NCBI GenBank assembly: GCA_036262055.1 | Contig: DATAJP010000003.1 | Coordinates: 124,001 to 188,000 of the forward strand | Length of the DNA: 64,000 bases | Direction: 5' to 3' | Source of the DNA: Ignavibacteria bacterium | GTDB lineage: Bacteria; Bacteroidota; Ignavibacteria; Tepidaquicellales; Tepidaquicellaceae | In this document: positions 8,159-51,580 of the stretch, in pieces | Layout of the letters: the number at the start of each line of letters is the position of its first letter | Position numbering within the stretch: position 1 is the first letter of the stretch | Made by a program: the position numbers and the translations under genes | The notes under the pieces: generated by a model | Databases searched by the model: none | Seen by the model: only the letters and a program-made list of their open reading frames with translations | What the model was told of the DNA's origin: nothing

Positions 8159-8629
8159 TTATGCTGTTACTTCTTCAGCGGTTTTTGCTTCAACAACAGG
8201 TTCTGAAACATTTTCAACTGTTTCATTTGCCTTAGGTGTCTCAGGCATTCCTGCAGCTTTTTCCTCTTCAACTAAAGCAAATAATTTTTTCTTTTCTTTG
8301 ATTTTGGTAGCTGCCTTACCTGTTAAATTTCTGAGATAATATAATTTTGCTCTTCTTACACTTCCGTGTTTCAGAACTTCGATACCGCCGATTTTAGGTG
8401 AACTGAATGGAAATATTCTCTCAACACCGACACCATTGGAAATTTTTCTGACTCTGAAAGTCTTTCCTGCGCCGCCGCCTTTTATTCCCATTACTATGCC
8501 TTTGAACTGCTGAACTCTCTCTTTATCGCCTTCAATAACCTTAACTGAAACTGAAATTGTATCACCGGGATGAAAAACCGGCAAGTCATTCCTCATCTGA
8601 GCCGCCGTTATTAATTTTATTTTGTCCAT
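8159..8629 (-). CDS. rplS: Ribosomal protein L19 with acidic C-terminal extension
   Basis: 50S subunit protein at the 30S-50S interface. The core (residues 1-115) shows [30 protein letters not shown] and [22 protein letters not shown], clear L19. The protein is 156 residues against about 115 in most bacteria. The extra part is an Ala/Glu/Val-rich acidic tail without predicted fold. Last gene of the ffh-rpsP-khpA-rimM-trmD-rplS operon, followed by a strong terminator. Confidence 0.97.
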
Positions 8630-8723: not shown

Positions 8724-9395
8724 TTAACCTTTTTTGCTAATTTTATCGTATTTTTCGCGTGCTTTTTGCTCTCTCCATTCACGAATTTTTGCATGATTGC
8801 CGCTTAATAAAATATCGGGAACGCGATGTCCCTCATATTCTTCAGGACGGGTATATTGCGGAGCATCGAAAATCTCCTCAACCTGGAAAGAATCTGTTAT
8901 GGCAGATTCGGAATCTCCTAAAACGCCGGGAATTAATCTTAAAACCGAATCAATAAAAACATATGCTGCAAGGTCTCCGCAGGAAATTACATAATTTCCG
9001 ATTGAAATTTCTTTTGTAACAAGAACGTCAATCACTCTTTGGTCAATTCCTTTGTAATGCCCGCAGATGCAGATTATATTTTTCTGAAGTGAATAGTAAT
9101 TTGCGGTTTTTTGTTCATAAATTTCCCCCTGCGGAGAGAAATAAATTATTTCGTCATAGTCACGTTCTGATTTAAGCTTGTTAACGCATTTGAAAATCGG
9201 TTCAGGTTTCAGAATCATTCCCGCCCCTCCGCCGTAAGGCGTATCATCAATTTGCTTGTAACTGCCTTCAGCATATTCACGGAGATTATGTATATGAATT
9301 TCCGCAAACTGTTTTTCAATTGCGCGGGAAGTAAGCCCGTGACTTAATGCACACTCAAGTATTTTAGTATTAGCACTTACTATATCGATTCGCAT
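8724..9395 (-). CDS. trmD: tRNA (guanine-N1-)-methyltransferase
   Basis: Methylates G37 of tRNAs using S-adenosylmethionine, which prevents +1 frameshifting. SPOUT knot motifs are visible: YFSPQGEIY, CGHYKGIDQRVID, IGNYVISCGDLAA, and the C-terminal GVLGDSESAITDSF and YEGHRVPDILLSGNHAKI typical of TrmD. The 223-residue length is usual. It sits in its conserved place between rimM and rplS, but here the rimM-trmD gap is filled by a 150-bp paired repeat. Confidence 0.97.
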   Translation of the reverse strand: MRIDIVSANTKILECALSHGLTSRAIEKQFAEIHIHNLREYAEGSYKQIDDTPYGGGAGMILKPEPIFKCVNKLKSERDYDEIIYFSPQGEIYEQKTANYYSLQKNIICICGHYKGIDQRVIDVLVTKEISIGNYVISCGDLAAYVFIDSVLRLIPGVLGDSESAITDSFQVEEIFDAPQYTRPEEYEGHRVPDILLSGNHAKIREWREQKAREKYDKISKKG

Positions 9396-9410: not shown

Positions 9411-9560
9411 GTCATTCCAGCGAAGGCTGGAATCTAGACTAAAATGATTCTAATAAAACAATGTTTATTATCAAAAAATATTTTATAAAATTTTTTGATT
9501 GTATAAAGATATATACTTGTTAGCTGCTAGCCTGGATCCCAGCCTTCGCTGGGATGACAT
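9411..9560. repeat. MITE-like pair of inverted GTCAT hairpins inside the rimM-trmD operon
   Basis: Left end: GTCATTCCAGCGAAGG then CTGGAATC (from 9411). Right end: the near-exact inverse GATCCCAGCCTTCGCTGGG then ATGAC (to about 9559). Each end folds on itself, and the two ends can pair with each other around about 80 AT-rich bases. The left copy continues into TAGACTAAAATGATTCTA, a tail shared with repeats at 32474 and 51539. Confidence 0.75.
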
Positions 9561-9578
9561 TTATAATTATTTTAGAAT

Positions 9579-10118
9579 CTATATCAATCCTTCAATCATT
9601 TTAATATATATCCGTTTTGTTTTCTCATCAATCTTTTCTATAAACTCTTTTCGATAAGGGATATACTTATCTTCGTTCTTCATATCTTTTGTTTTTATTA
9701 AATCATCACCGCCGTAATTTTCAAATGCGGCAACTTTTCCCATCAATTCGTCTCCCGCATATACATCAAAATCGATAAGTTCATGAAAATAGTGCTGTCC
9801 TTTTGCGAGTTTTTTCTTTTTAGTTTCTTCTATTAAGACAAACTTATTTGCAAAACTCTGAACTTCGTTAATCGAATTATAATCTATCAGCTTCAGCTTA
9901 ACATATTCGCCAATCATTTCCGAGTCATCAACATCAAAAATGAAAAAATCCTTATTCTTTATGAAAACTCTTTTTGATTCATCATAAAGATATAAGGATT
10001 TTAATTTTAAAAATCTTTCGGGAAAATCAGTAAGCGGGAAAATTTTCAAATAACCTTTTATTCCAAAAGGTTTCAGAATTTTTCCGATAGTTATAAACTT
10101 ATTGTAATCAGGTTTAAT
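9579..10118 (-). CDS. rimM: Ribosome maturation factor RimM with probable non-standard start codon
   Basis: Assists 30S maturation by binding S19. The N-terminal RimM domain is complete only if translation begins upstream of the TTG at 10049. Codons upstream of it encode KPDYNKFITIGKILKPFGIK, the classic RimM beginning, and run back to a TAA at 10131-10133. Between that stop and the RimM motif there is no ATG, GTG or TTG. The best candidates are ATT at 10118 (overlapping the khpA TGA, 179 residues) or CTG at 10121. The C-terminal PRC-barrel is seen as VYAGDELMGKVAAFENYGGDDLI. Starting at TTG 10049 would remove the first conserved strands and give only 156 residues. Confidence 0.88.
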   Translation of the reverse strand: MKPDYNKFITIGKILKPFGIKGYLKIFPLTDFPERFLKLKSLYLYDESKRVFIKNKDFFIFDVDDSEMIGEYVKLKLIDYNSINEVQSFANKFVLIEETKKKKLAKGQHYFHELIDFDVYAGDELMGKVAAFENYGGDDLIKTKDMKNEDKYIPYRKEFIEKIDEKTKRIYIKMIEGLI

Positions 10119-10369
10119 CAGCTGCGTTCTTTATTGCTTCTGTCGGGTATCTCCAATATTGCACGTTTGCCGTCTTTTGCCGCAATTGCAGTAAGAAGTG
10201 TTCTTATTGCTTTTGCGGTCTTGCCTTCTTTTCCAATTACCTTGCCGGTTTCGTTGTCGGCAACGGTTAAGCGGAACTTCAGCTTCTCGTCGTCGTGCAT
10301 TTCTTCAACTTTCACCGCATTAGGATTATCAACCAAATGCTTGGCAATGAATTCGATAAATTCCTTCAT
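10118..10369 (-). CDS. khpA: KH-domain RNA-binding protein KhpA
   Basis: Small RNA-binding protein of 83 residues with one KH domain; the GxxG loop is in VIGKEGKTAKAIRTLL. In Gram-positives KhpA pairs with KhpB/Jag and affects cell division and sRNA function. It sits between rpsP and rimM, its conserved position in many phyla. Its TGA stop overlaps the likely rimM start, so rimM translation is probably coupled to khpA. Confidence 0.93.
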   Translation of the reverse strand: MKEFIEFIAKHLVDNPNAVKVEEMHDDEKLKFRLTVADNETGKVIGKEGKTAKAIRTLLTAIAAKDGKRAILEIPDRSNKERS

Positions 10370-10457: not shown

Positions 10458-10865
10458 TTAAGCAGCAGGTTGCTTTGCTTCAGCATCTCGTTTTGCCTTA
10501 CTCTCTTTGCGTCTTATTTTACGCGCTTTAGCTCTATCAAGTTTTGCAGCTTTTTCTGAGAAGAATTTATTTAATTCTTCTTCTATTTGCTCTGATGTTT
10601 TTCCTTTTTTCTCGAGATGCCATCTTAAAATAACCCCCTCTTTACTAAATAAATTTCTTACCGTATCGGTAGGGATAGCACCCGTTTTGAGCCAATAGAG
10701 AACCCTGTCGGTGTTTAATTTTATTTCCATTGGGTCCGGATTCGGGTTATATGAACCGAGTGATTCGATGAATTTTCCGTCTCTCGGAGACCTTGAATCC
10801 GCTGCAACGATTTTGTAAATGGGCTTATGCTTTTTACCCATTCTTTTGAGTCTTAACTTAACCAA
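10458..10865 (-). CDS. rpsP: Ribosomal protein S16 with basic C-terminal extension
   Basis: 30S subunit assembly protein. The N-terminus VKLRLKRMGKKHKPIYKIVAADSRSPRDGKFIESLGSYNP is diagnostic. It is 135 residues against 80-90 in many bacteria; the extra C-terminal third is Lys/Arg/Ala-rich (KAKRDAEAKQPAA), as in other FCB-group members. Second gene of the operon, after ffh. Confidence 0.97.
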   Translation of the reverse strand: MVKLRLKRMGKKHKPIYKIVAADSRSPRDGKFIESLGSYNPNPDPMEIKLNTDRVLYWLKTGAIPTDTVRNLFSKEGVILRWHLEKKGKTSEQIEEELNKFFSEKAAKLDRAKARKIRRKESKAKRDAEAKQPAA

Positions 10866-27408: not shown

Positions 27409-27489
27409 TCACTTTACTAAAACAATTTTTTTGGTCTCAACAAAATCATTGGAGATTAATCTAACAAAATAAACTCCGCTGTTAAGGCT
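27409..27489 (-). pseudogene. Orphan T9SS sorting-tail fragment
   Basis: In a reading frame one base off from the gene ending at 27482, the minus strand encodes SLNSGVYFVRLISNDFVETK then KIVLVK and TGA. This is the end of a T9SS type A sorting domain (compare SGIYFYTITAGSFRDTKK in this window). The frame stays open upstream inside the neighbouring gene, but the sequence loses resemblance to a sorting domain about ten residues back, and the YPNPFNP part is absent. It is read best as a remnant of a lost secreted-protein gene, or as the result of a frameshift fusing the end of the neighbour. Confidence 0.65.
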
Positions 27490-28345
27490 TCCTTGACATT
27501 TTATAATGAAGTTTGAGAAAAGGTCTTCCATAAAAATGGAGTGTATGATTTGTGCGGAGGACATTTTCTTCATCAACATAAACGTGTATCCACTCGTGCA
27601 TTGATTTTACGAACTTAGCCCAATACCTGCCCTGATGGTTTGTAAGAACAAAATAAAATCCGTTGTCACCGAATCTTTTCCCTTCTGAACTAAGAAGCAA
27701 TGAACCATCTTTTAAAACTTCTTTTTTCATTATAACGGAAGCGTTGCCATTAGGGAGCGGGAAGACAACTTTTAAATGTGAGCAGTCTTCATTTCTTGTT
27801 TTGCTTGTGGTGTATATTCCGGAGTAGATTACGTTGCCTGAGCTTTTCATGATTCTATACCATACAGTATATTTCGCAACGTTTTCTTTATCACGAAGTT
27901 TTATGATTTTACTGTTAATACCCATTGAAGAATCCATTGCGCTCAAAGGAAGATTTAATTGCTGCAGTCTTCTGCTGAAGATTATTGCAAGCAGTTTCCC
28001 AAAAGGTTTATAAAAACTGCACCATTCTGACCAGATTTCAAAATTATAATCGGAAGTGCATTCATAAAAATTTATAATTTCGGGATGAACATTCTTTTTA
28101 TCGGATTCATCAGGAAGCAATGCATGCATTGAATCCATAAGACCTGTACCTTTTTCGTTTTCCGAAATGCTGAGGTTCTCTGAACTTGCGAGGTCTTTAA
28201 AAAATTTATCTTTGATTATTCTGGTATCGCCGATTGGTCCTAAGAGCCAATCATCATCTTGAGGATTGAATTTTTTTCCGGTGGTTTTTACCCAAACCTG
28301 TGTAATCCAATCTTGAAGATACCCGGCTTTTTTATTTAACCACAT
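27482..28345 (-). CDS. Conserved protein of unknown function (possibly DUF4166-like)
   Basis: 287 residues, no signal peptide, one Trp-rich N-terminus (MWLNKKAGYLQDWITQVWVK). The C-terminal half is a beta-rich domain with WYRIMKSSGNVIYSG, GFYFVLTNHQGRYWAKF and IHVYVDEENVLRTNHTLHFYG. This recalls DUF4166 proteins, but I am not certain of the family. Divergent from acs with a 122-base gap. Its 3' end overlaps the orphan T9SS tail in another frame, so its last residues (LKLHYKMSRKP) may not be the original C-terminus. Confidence 0.7.
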   Translation of the reverse strand: MWLNKKAGYLQDWITQVWVKTTGKKFNPQDDDWLLGPIGDTRIIKDKFFKDLASSENLSISENEKGTGLMDSMHALLPDESDKKNVHPEIINFYECTSDYNFEIWSEWCSFYKPFGKLLAIIFSRRLQQLNLPLSAMDSSMGINSKIIKLRDKENVAKYTVWYRIMKSSGNVIYSGIYTTSKTRNEDCSHLKVVFPLPNGNASVIMKKEVLKDGSLLLSSEGKRFGDNGFYFVLTNHQGRYWAKFVKSMHEWIHVYVDEENVLRTNHTLHFYGRPFLKLHYKMSRKP

Positions 28346-28441
28346 ATTACAAAAATAACGTAAAACGATTTTCAGATAAATGTTAATTAAATTGCCAAAA
28401 GTGAGACGGAAATTTAAATTTATTAAATATTAACTAATTGT

Positions 28442-50679: not shown

Positions 50680-50718
50680 ATAAGGATGCTTTTGCTCAAA
50701 AGCATCCTTATTTTTTTT
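50680..50718 (+). terminator. Strong Rho-independent terminator
   Basis: ATAAGGATGCTTTTG pairs with CAAAAGCATCCTTAT (50680-50694 with 50697-50711), followed by eight T. Ends the DUF4397 pair; the T-run overlaps the stop of the convergent hydrolase gene. Confidence 0.94.
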
Positions 50719-51532
50719 ACACTTCTGAATCGCTTCTGGGAAACGGAATTTTCATCAAAAAATCTTCAACGCATCTGTTAAACTCATCAGGTTTTTCTAT
50801 ATTTGATAAATGTCCTGCGCCATGCATAACTTTTAAATAAGAGTTTTTTAAATTTTCTTTCATACGCTCTGCATACTCGACACCTGTCATTGCATCTTTA
50901 TCGCTGGCGATTATTAATGCAGGGATATTAATGTGCTTTAATTCTTCAAGAGTTTCAGTGCGGGTTGCGAGCGCATTTGCAACCTGAGAAATTCCTTCCG
51001 GCGATTGCCAGCTCATAACTTCCTTAACAAAATTTTTAATATCATCATTTTTATATGACTGTTCTGATATAATATTTTTTAAAAACTGGCTGAGGAATAA
51101 ATCTTTCTTTCCTTTCTTCATTTGTTTGACTAATGTATTACGCGCAATTAAAACATCATTTGTATCTCGTTCGGCTCTTGTATTGGAAAGAATAATGGAA
51201 TTAAACAAATCCGGTGAACGTTGTATAGCTCTCAAGATAATATATCCGCCTATTGAAAGCCCGCATGCATTAACTTCATCAAGCTGTAATTCAGAAATGA
51301 TATTCAGCAGGTCATCAACCAAATCTTCCATCATAAGAGGATAGGGAGAATCATATTTGCTGTAACCAAGTCCGCGGATGTCATAAGTTATTACTCGAAA
51401 ATCATTTTTAAAATGTTCAACCTGCTTATCCCATTGGCGGCTGCATAAAGGAAAAGCATGAATGAATATAATTACAGGATTATCTCCTCCTGTGTCATAA
51501 ACTGCAATGCCGTTTATTTCTGATTTTTTCAT
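50717..51532 (-). CDS. Alpha/beta hydrolase
   Basis: 271 residues. The nucleophile elbow is CGLSIGGYIILRA (Ser in G-L-S-I-G), acid Asp in LIIASDKDAMTG, and His in HGAGHLSNIEKP. An oxyanion-region motif FIHAFPLCSRQWDKQ is present. Similar to 3-oxoadipate enol-lactonase and BioH-like esterases; substrate unknown. Its start is next to the repeat at 51539. Confidence 0.9.
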   Translation of the reverse strand: MKKSEINGIAVYDTGGDNPVIIFIHAFPLCSRQWDKQVEHFKNDFRVITYDIRGLGYSKYDSPYPLMMEDLVDDLLNIISELQLDEVNACGLSIGGYIILRAIQRSPDLFNSIILSNTRAERDTNDVLIARNTLVKQMKKGKKDLFLSQFLKNIISEQSYKNDDIKNFVKEVMSWQSPEGISQVANALATRTETLEELKHINIPALIIASDKDAMTGVEYAERMKENLKNSYLKVMHGAGHLSNIEKPDEFNRCVEDFLMKIPFPRSDSEV

Positions 51533-51538
51533 AACATT

Positions 51539-51580
51539 GTCATTCCCGCGCAGACGGAAATCTAAGCTAAAATGATTCTA
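51539..51580 (+). repeat. GTCATTCC hairpin repeat with CTAAAATGATT tail
   Basis: GTCATTCCCGCGCAGACGG then AAATCTAAGCTAAAATGATT; ungapped 42-base relative of 9411-9452 and 32474-32515. Located between the hydrolase and DUF2461 genes. Confidence 0.75.

Follow-up and report, generated by a model that had tools for sequence, protein, structure and literature searches.

In Escherichia coli, infC and pcnB are AUU-start genes, and very few bacterial genes are known to have a near-cognate start codon. IF3 autoregulates infC, which begins with AUU or a related start codon. The genes of the E. coli trmD operon are unevenly translated, and its maturation enzymes are thought to be made in smaller amounts than its ribosomal proteins. 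In the part available to us, a 2024 review states that there is no information on how the trmD operon is regulated (PMC10931766). The same source describes a UUG start for rpsT, which encodes bS20, in several gammaproteobacterial families (PMC10931766). Comparisons of closely related genomes showed that a UUG start very rarely switches to AUU or CUG; among 2,468 ancestral UUG starts, the available part of the study gives one switch to CUG and mentions none to AUU (PMC5622118). In the titles and abstracts of the open-licence literature, including the accessible parts of PMC10931766 and PMC10783764, we found no description of a non-standard start for rimM.

The window analyzed here is a stretch of 64,000 nucleotides from an Ignavibacteria bacterium (contig DATAJP010000003.1, positions 124,001 to 188,000), and it carries an operon with the order rpsP-khpA-rimM-trmD-rplS on the minus strand (Table 1). 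Compared to the trmD operon of E. coli, the order of rpsP, rimM, trmD and rplS is the same; the differences are that the operon of the window includes khpA and that the apparent means of setting the output of each gene are the start codon and the strength of the Shine-Dalgarno site. Compared to E. coli infC, rimM of the window likewise has only near-cognate codons available, and its product likewise acts on the 30S subunit. However, rimM does not encode IF3 itself, shares bases with the gene upstream of it and has no Shine-Dalgarno site, and a control of rimM by IF3 is hypothetical. E. coli pcnB is a parallel in that, without being infC, it has a near-cognate start, although its protein and operon are unrelated. 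The rpsT gene resembles rimM as a case of a weak start conserved within lineages in a ribosome-related gene, but UUG is a standard alternative start codon and rimM of the window does not have even that.

Table 1. Positions of the operon genes and of the codons considered at the khpA-rimM junction (window coordinates)
Feature	Position	Strand	Remarks
rpsP (bS16)	10458..10865	-	TTG start, like most rpsP genes of the family
khpA	10118..10369	-	ATG start, strong Shine-Dalgarno site; stop TGA at 10120-10118
TAA closing the rimM frame upstream	10131..10133	-	Stop-to-stop reading
rimM open frame, stop to stop	9579..10130	-	183 codons; TIGR02273 and Pfam matches above cut-off
CTG, second candidate rimM start	10119..10121	-	CTGA overlap with khpA stop; same overlap in G231 (L096)
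ATT, favored candidate rimM start	10116..10118	-	1-base overlap with khpA stop (TGATT)
First TTG of the rimM frame	10047..10049	-	Inside conserved domain; rejected as start
trmD	8724..9395	-	ATG start; downstream operon gene
rplS (bL19)	8159..8629	-	ATG start, strong Shine-Dalgarno site

The initial annotation had claimed that no ATG, GTG or TTG in the rimM frame gives the full conserved domain and that the first conserved segment lies upstream of a TTG at 10049. Both claims were borne out when the frame was read from stop to stop. It is a single frame of 183 codons (10130-9579), and none of the three standard codons follows the upstream stop until the conserved N-terminus is reached (codons 1 to 27: AGA ACG CAG CTG ATT AAA CCT GAT TAC AAT AAG TTT ATA ACT ATC GGA AAA ATT CTG AAA CCT TTT GGA ATA AAA GGT TAT). 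The earliest one is the TTG at 10049, which is residue 28 and falls inside the domain, as the Pfam RimM match begins at residue 14 and the TIGR02273 match at residue 13. The identity of the protein is clear from its score of 102.2 bits against TIGR02273 (16S_RimM; cut-off 66.2), which covers profile positions 2-165 of 166, and from the presence of both expected domains above their cut-offs, namely PF01782 (the RimM N-terminal domain, 53 bits) and PF24986 (PRC barrel, 36.8 bits). There is exactly one rimM in the whole genome. Gene callers limited to ATG, GTG and TTG would be expected to start rimM at 10049 and thereby truncate RimM. An internal start at this TTG, giving a short RimM, has in its favor that it is the first standard start in the frame. 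It would remove the conserved first segment, including I13, G16, K17, K20, G23 and G26, all of which are invariant in an alignment of five sequences, and no member of the family begins there; we regard it as extremely improbable.

Such a frame is exceptional in the window. Among 60 mechanically chosen frames of at least 80 codons, four have their first ATG, GTG or TTG at least 25 codons in: rimM, a frame cut by the window edge, a frame antisense to khpA and a frame at 27482-28429, which has an ATG at codon 28 and looks ordinary by eye. Thus, rimM is the sole clear case among these 60 frames of a conserved N-terminus that is not preceded by a standard start.

The start codons of relatives place this observation in context. 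The family sample comprised 29 genomes, of which 27 gave a rimM match and 26 a readable N-terminus (one of the 26, L025, lies at the end of a contig, and its frame is broken or runs out near residue 125; L028 repeats L010, and L029-L031, which belong to other groups, were not counted). In these 26 genomes, rimM starts with TTG in 22, with GTG in 2 and with ATG in none; the other 2, the window and G026, have no standard start. The initial annotation had named ATG as the start that resequencing might reveal; the usual start in the family is TTG. It had also proposed a comparison of the khpA-rimM junction in close relatives, and this comparison was informative: G026, the nearest relative, belongs to another genus and likewise lacks a standard rimM start. 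The missing start is thus apparently common to two genera, as judged from their sequences. In a quick tree of RpsP, KhpA, TrmD and RplS, made without bootstrap, the window, G026 and G027 were grouped at 98% SH-aLRT support, nearest to a genome that uses TTG. The contig of G027, the third member of this clade, begins inside rimM, so the N-terminus is unreadable; khpA was looked for in the G027 genome and not found.

These data bear on the explanation that the true start codon is a standard one obscured by a sequencing or assembly error. One substitution in ATT or in CTG would yield a standard start. However, G026 comes from a separate assembly of another genus and also lacks such a codon, and both assemblies would need to be wrong; a base error is unlikely because the two agree in this respect. 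Furthermore, the insertion of one base at the junction would be expected to produce a khpA-rimM fusion or a frame shift and would supply no start, and the start state of the family is TTG, not ATG. Taken together, an error of this kind is very unlikely.

Outside the family, we classified rimM in 61 genomes by asking for an in-frame ATG within 30 codons before the domain. These 61, of about 197 with a match (224 less 27), are not a random draw; they are the best-scoring genomes, the members of families f13 and f18 with listed places, and one to three genomes from each other family, with L049, L053 and L060 left out as repeats of L096, L022 and L103. An ATG was available in 35, GTG or TTG alone in 25, and none of the three in 1. 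In family f13, rimM was non-AUG in all 9 genomes examined. A distant member of the same class, G231 (L096), also has a rimM without a standard start, and there a CTG overlaps the khpA stop as CTGA. To judge from these start codons, many genomes of the class have a non-AUG rimM, the family of the window has no other kind, and the clade of the window carries this furthest. The window rimM represents the far end of a family-wide trait and does not reflect the loss of an ATG.

A different explanation is a relaxed need for RimM, in which drift would be eroding the start on the way to losing the gene. The sister family f2 is what makes this conceivable. No rimM match was found in any of its 15 genomes, with either the window protein or TIGR02273, and none exceeded the PF01782 cut-off; in the 5 loci examined (L091-L095, from G032, G035, G029, G030 and G041), khpA adjoins trmD. 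It seems from these searches that rimM has been lost in f2. In the window, however, the frame is intact and the RimM profile score is well above the cut-off. RimM of the window and of G026 share 48.6% identity, with a residual of +1.2 (rank 186 of 300 pairs) relative to what the other operon proteins predict, so that by sequence comparison RimM in these two genomes is under ordinary constraint and changes at the rate expected from its neighbors. Since RimM evolves at a normal rate, rimM would not be decaying, and we consider the relaxed-need explanation unlikely.

Which codon would be used in place of a standard start can be narrowed down by position. Within the family, the distance from the rimM start to the conserved Gly in the IGK motif is 8-11 codons. 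In the window, ATT at 10118 lies 11 codons before this Gly, CTG at 10121 lies 12 codons before it and an in-frame ATA at 10094 only 3. Because ATT falls within the family range, it is favored; it would give a RimM of 179 amino acids. In the alignment, P7 and D8 of the frame correspond to the residues that come just after the start in relatives, and for this reason translation should begin at ATT or before it. The ATA at 10094 is unlikely as a start, being closer to the domain than any start in the family. CTG is retained as a candidate because in G231, another genome with no standard rimM start, a CTG overlaps the khpA stop in the same way. In our judgement, ATT has about an even chance of being the rimM start and CTG a smaller but substantial one, with the remainder left to other codons; ATT and CTG cannot be told apart from sequence alone. 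In G026, TTA occupies the position 11 codons before the conserved Gly, ATC the one at 13 and ATA the one at 15; this ATA overlaps the khpA stop as ATAA. There is no near-cognate codon within 8-11 codons before the Gly of G026. The window and G026 may therefore have their starts at different positions, as far as the two sequences indicate.

Both candidates in the window touch the end of khpA. The initial annotation had noted that ATT at 10118 overlaps the khpA stop as TGATT, and this holds, as the stop TGA occupies 10120-10118. CTG 10121-10119 was among the codons listed there, although its 2-base overlap with TGA, a 4-base CTGA arrangement, was not discussed. In either case rimM would start on the stop codon of the upstream gene, as in reinitiation pairs, and it has no strong Shine-Dalgarno site of its own. 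The predicted anti-Shine-Dalgarno duplex energy, calculated with a generic anti-Shine-Dalgarno sequence and not one read from the 16S rRNA of this genome, is -1.0 kcal/mol at both rimM candidates; the medians were -8.9 for khpA, -7.8 for rpsP, -7.4 for rplS and -1.2 for trmD. The absence of such pairing at rimM is not universal, as several TTG-starting rimM genes of the family have some Shine-Dalgarno pairing (to -7.7). Furthermore, trmD mostly lacks a Shine-Dalgarno site yet keeps ATG (25 of 25 family genomes). Of the other neighbors of rimM in the family, rplS has ATG in 25 of 25 genomes, and khpA starts with ATG in 22 of 23 and with GTG in 1 of 23.

A start at the stop codon without a Shine-Dalgarno site suits reinitiation by a ribosome that has finished khpA. 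We propose that rimM is probably translated weakly by this route: ribosomes finishing khpA would re-initiate at a near-cognate codon over the khpA stop, with ATT 10118 favored and CTG 10121 next, without the aid of a Shine-Dalgarno site. The outcome would be little RimM, a catalytic maturation factor, beside much bS16 and bL19 from the same operon. Reinitiation in E. coli in the absence of a Shine-Dalgarno site has been described as being of low efficiency in the part of the study available (PMC2268962). We infer each of the three elements, namely the codon used, the reinitiation route and the low output. The earlier suggestion of reinitiation at a non-standard codon thus finds support in the overlap with the khpA stop and in the lack of a Shine-Dalgarno site; ATT, the codon it named, is favored, with CTG close behind. 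A point against the proposed route to low RimM output is that non-AUG rimM is scattered across the class, as shown by the 25 of 61 genomes outside the family with GTG or TTG alone. Lacking a standard start in two genera, in a family whose readable rimM genes never begin with ATG, rimM offers a natural test of whether the strength of a start codon sets the ratio of an assembly factor to ribosomal proteins.

A non-AUG start alone need not mean low output, because rpsP, which encodes a ribosomal protein, also avoids ATG throughout the family (TTG in 20 of 23 genomes, GTG in 3 and ATG in 0). Most rpsP genes of the family have a strong Shine-Dalgarno site despite the non-ATG start. Outside the family, TTG or GTG was present at the aligned rpsP start in 41 of 43 readable genomes, counted by eye from printed rows with repeats left out; the 2 exceptions, which start with ATG, are members of the sister family f2, and in one of the 41 there is an additional ATG, four codons further upstream.

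Two other arrangements at the junction were considered and rejected. An RNA structure that hides the rimM start is not indicated, as the 121-base junction folds no better than its shuffled versions (z -0.59), 49 of 200 of which folded as well. For a KhpA-RimM fusion by frameshifting, inspection by eye revealed no slippery site, and the rimM frame of several relatives does not begin until the khpA stop or beyond it.

The parallel with infC deserves separate consideration. In infC of the window genome (L111, G000:C2:1156400-1158200), the conserved motif is not preceded by an ATG, GTG or TTG, and the best candidate start is ATC (in ATC CGA). The order has 43 genomes with an infC match; of the 30 loci retrieved, 29 likewise have no standard start, and the exception has a TTG well upstream. 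The comparison with infC made in the initial annotation is therefore a reasonable one for this genome.

By analogy with E. coli, near-cognate starts of rimM and infC could both be repressed by IF3, and RimM would then rise with a shortage of free IF3, such as might arise when IF3 is bound up on immature 30S subunits. In addition to the infC starts of this genome and order, findings from the parts of two studies available to us are consistent with such control: excess IF3 inhibits reinitiation in E. coli, less severely where a Shine-Dalgarno site is present, and also inhibits non-canonical starts (PMC2268962), and IF1 and IF3 are present on immature 30S subunits in cells without RimM (PMC13246957). 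However, the other members of the family use TTG, which by the standards of E. coli is a canonical start; the rimM start codon is itself putative, and the functional evidence all comes from E. coli. We regard control of rimM by IF3 as a plausible but tentative alternative of rather low probability. Somewhat more doubtful still is the extension in which this lineage would have a small set of IF3-sensing genes made up of rimM and infC, a homeostatic loop that couples assembly and initiation via start codons alone. If it were true, unfinished 30S subunits soaking up IF3 would lead to more IF3, which gates initiation, and to more RimM, which finishes the 30S head. The same rimM case could also test whether IF3 links assembly with initiation.

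Between rimM and trmD, at 9420-9565 of the window, there are inverted repeats like GTCATCCCAGCGAAGGCTGGGATCC. Repeats of this type are scattered in intergenic regions. Similar residues (NHFSLD..LR) can be read upstream of trmD and upstream of the gene at 50717-51577.
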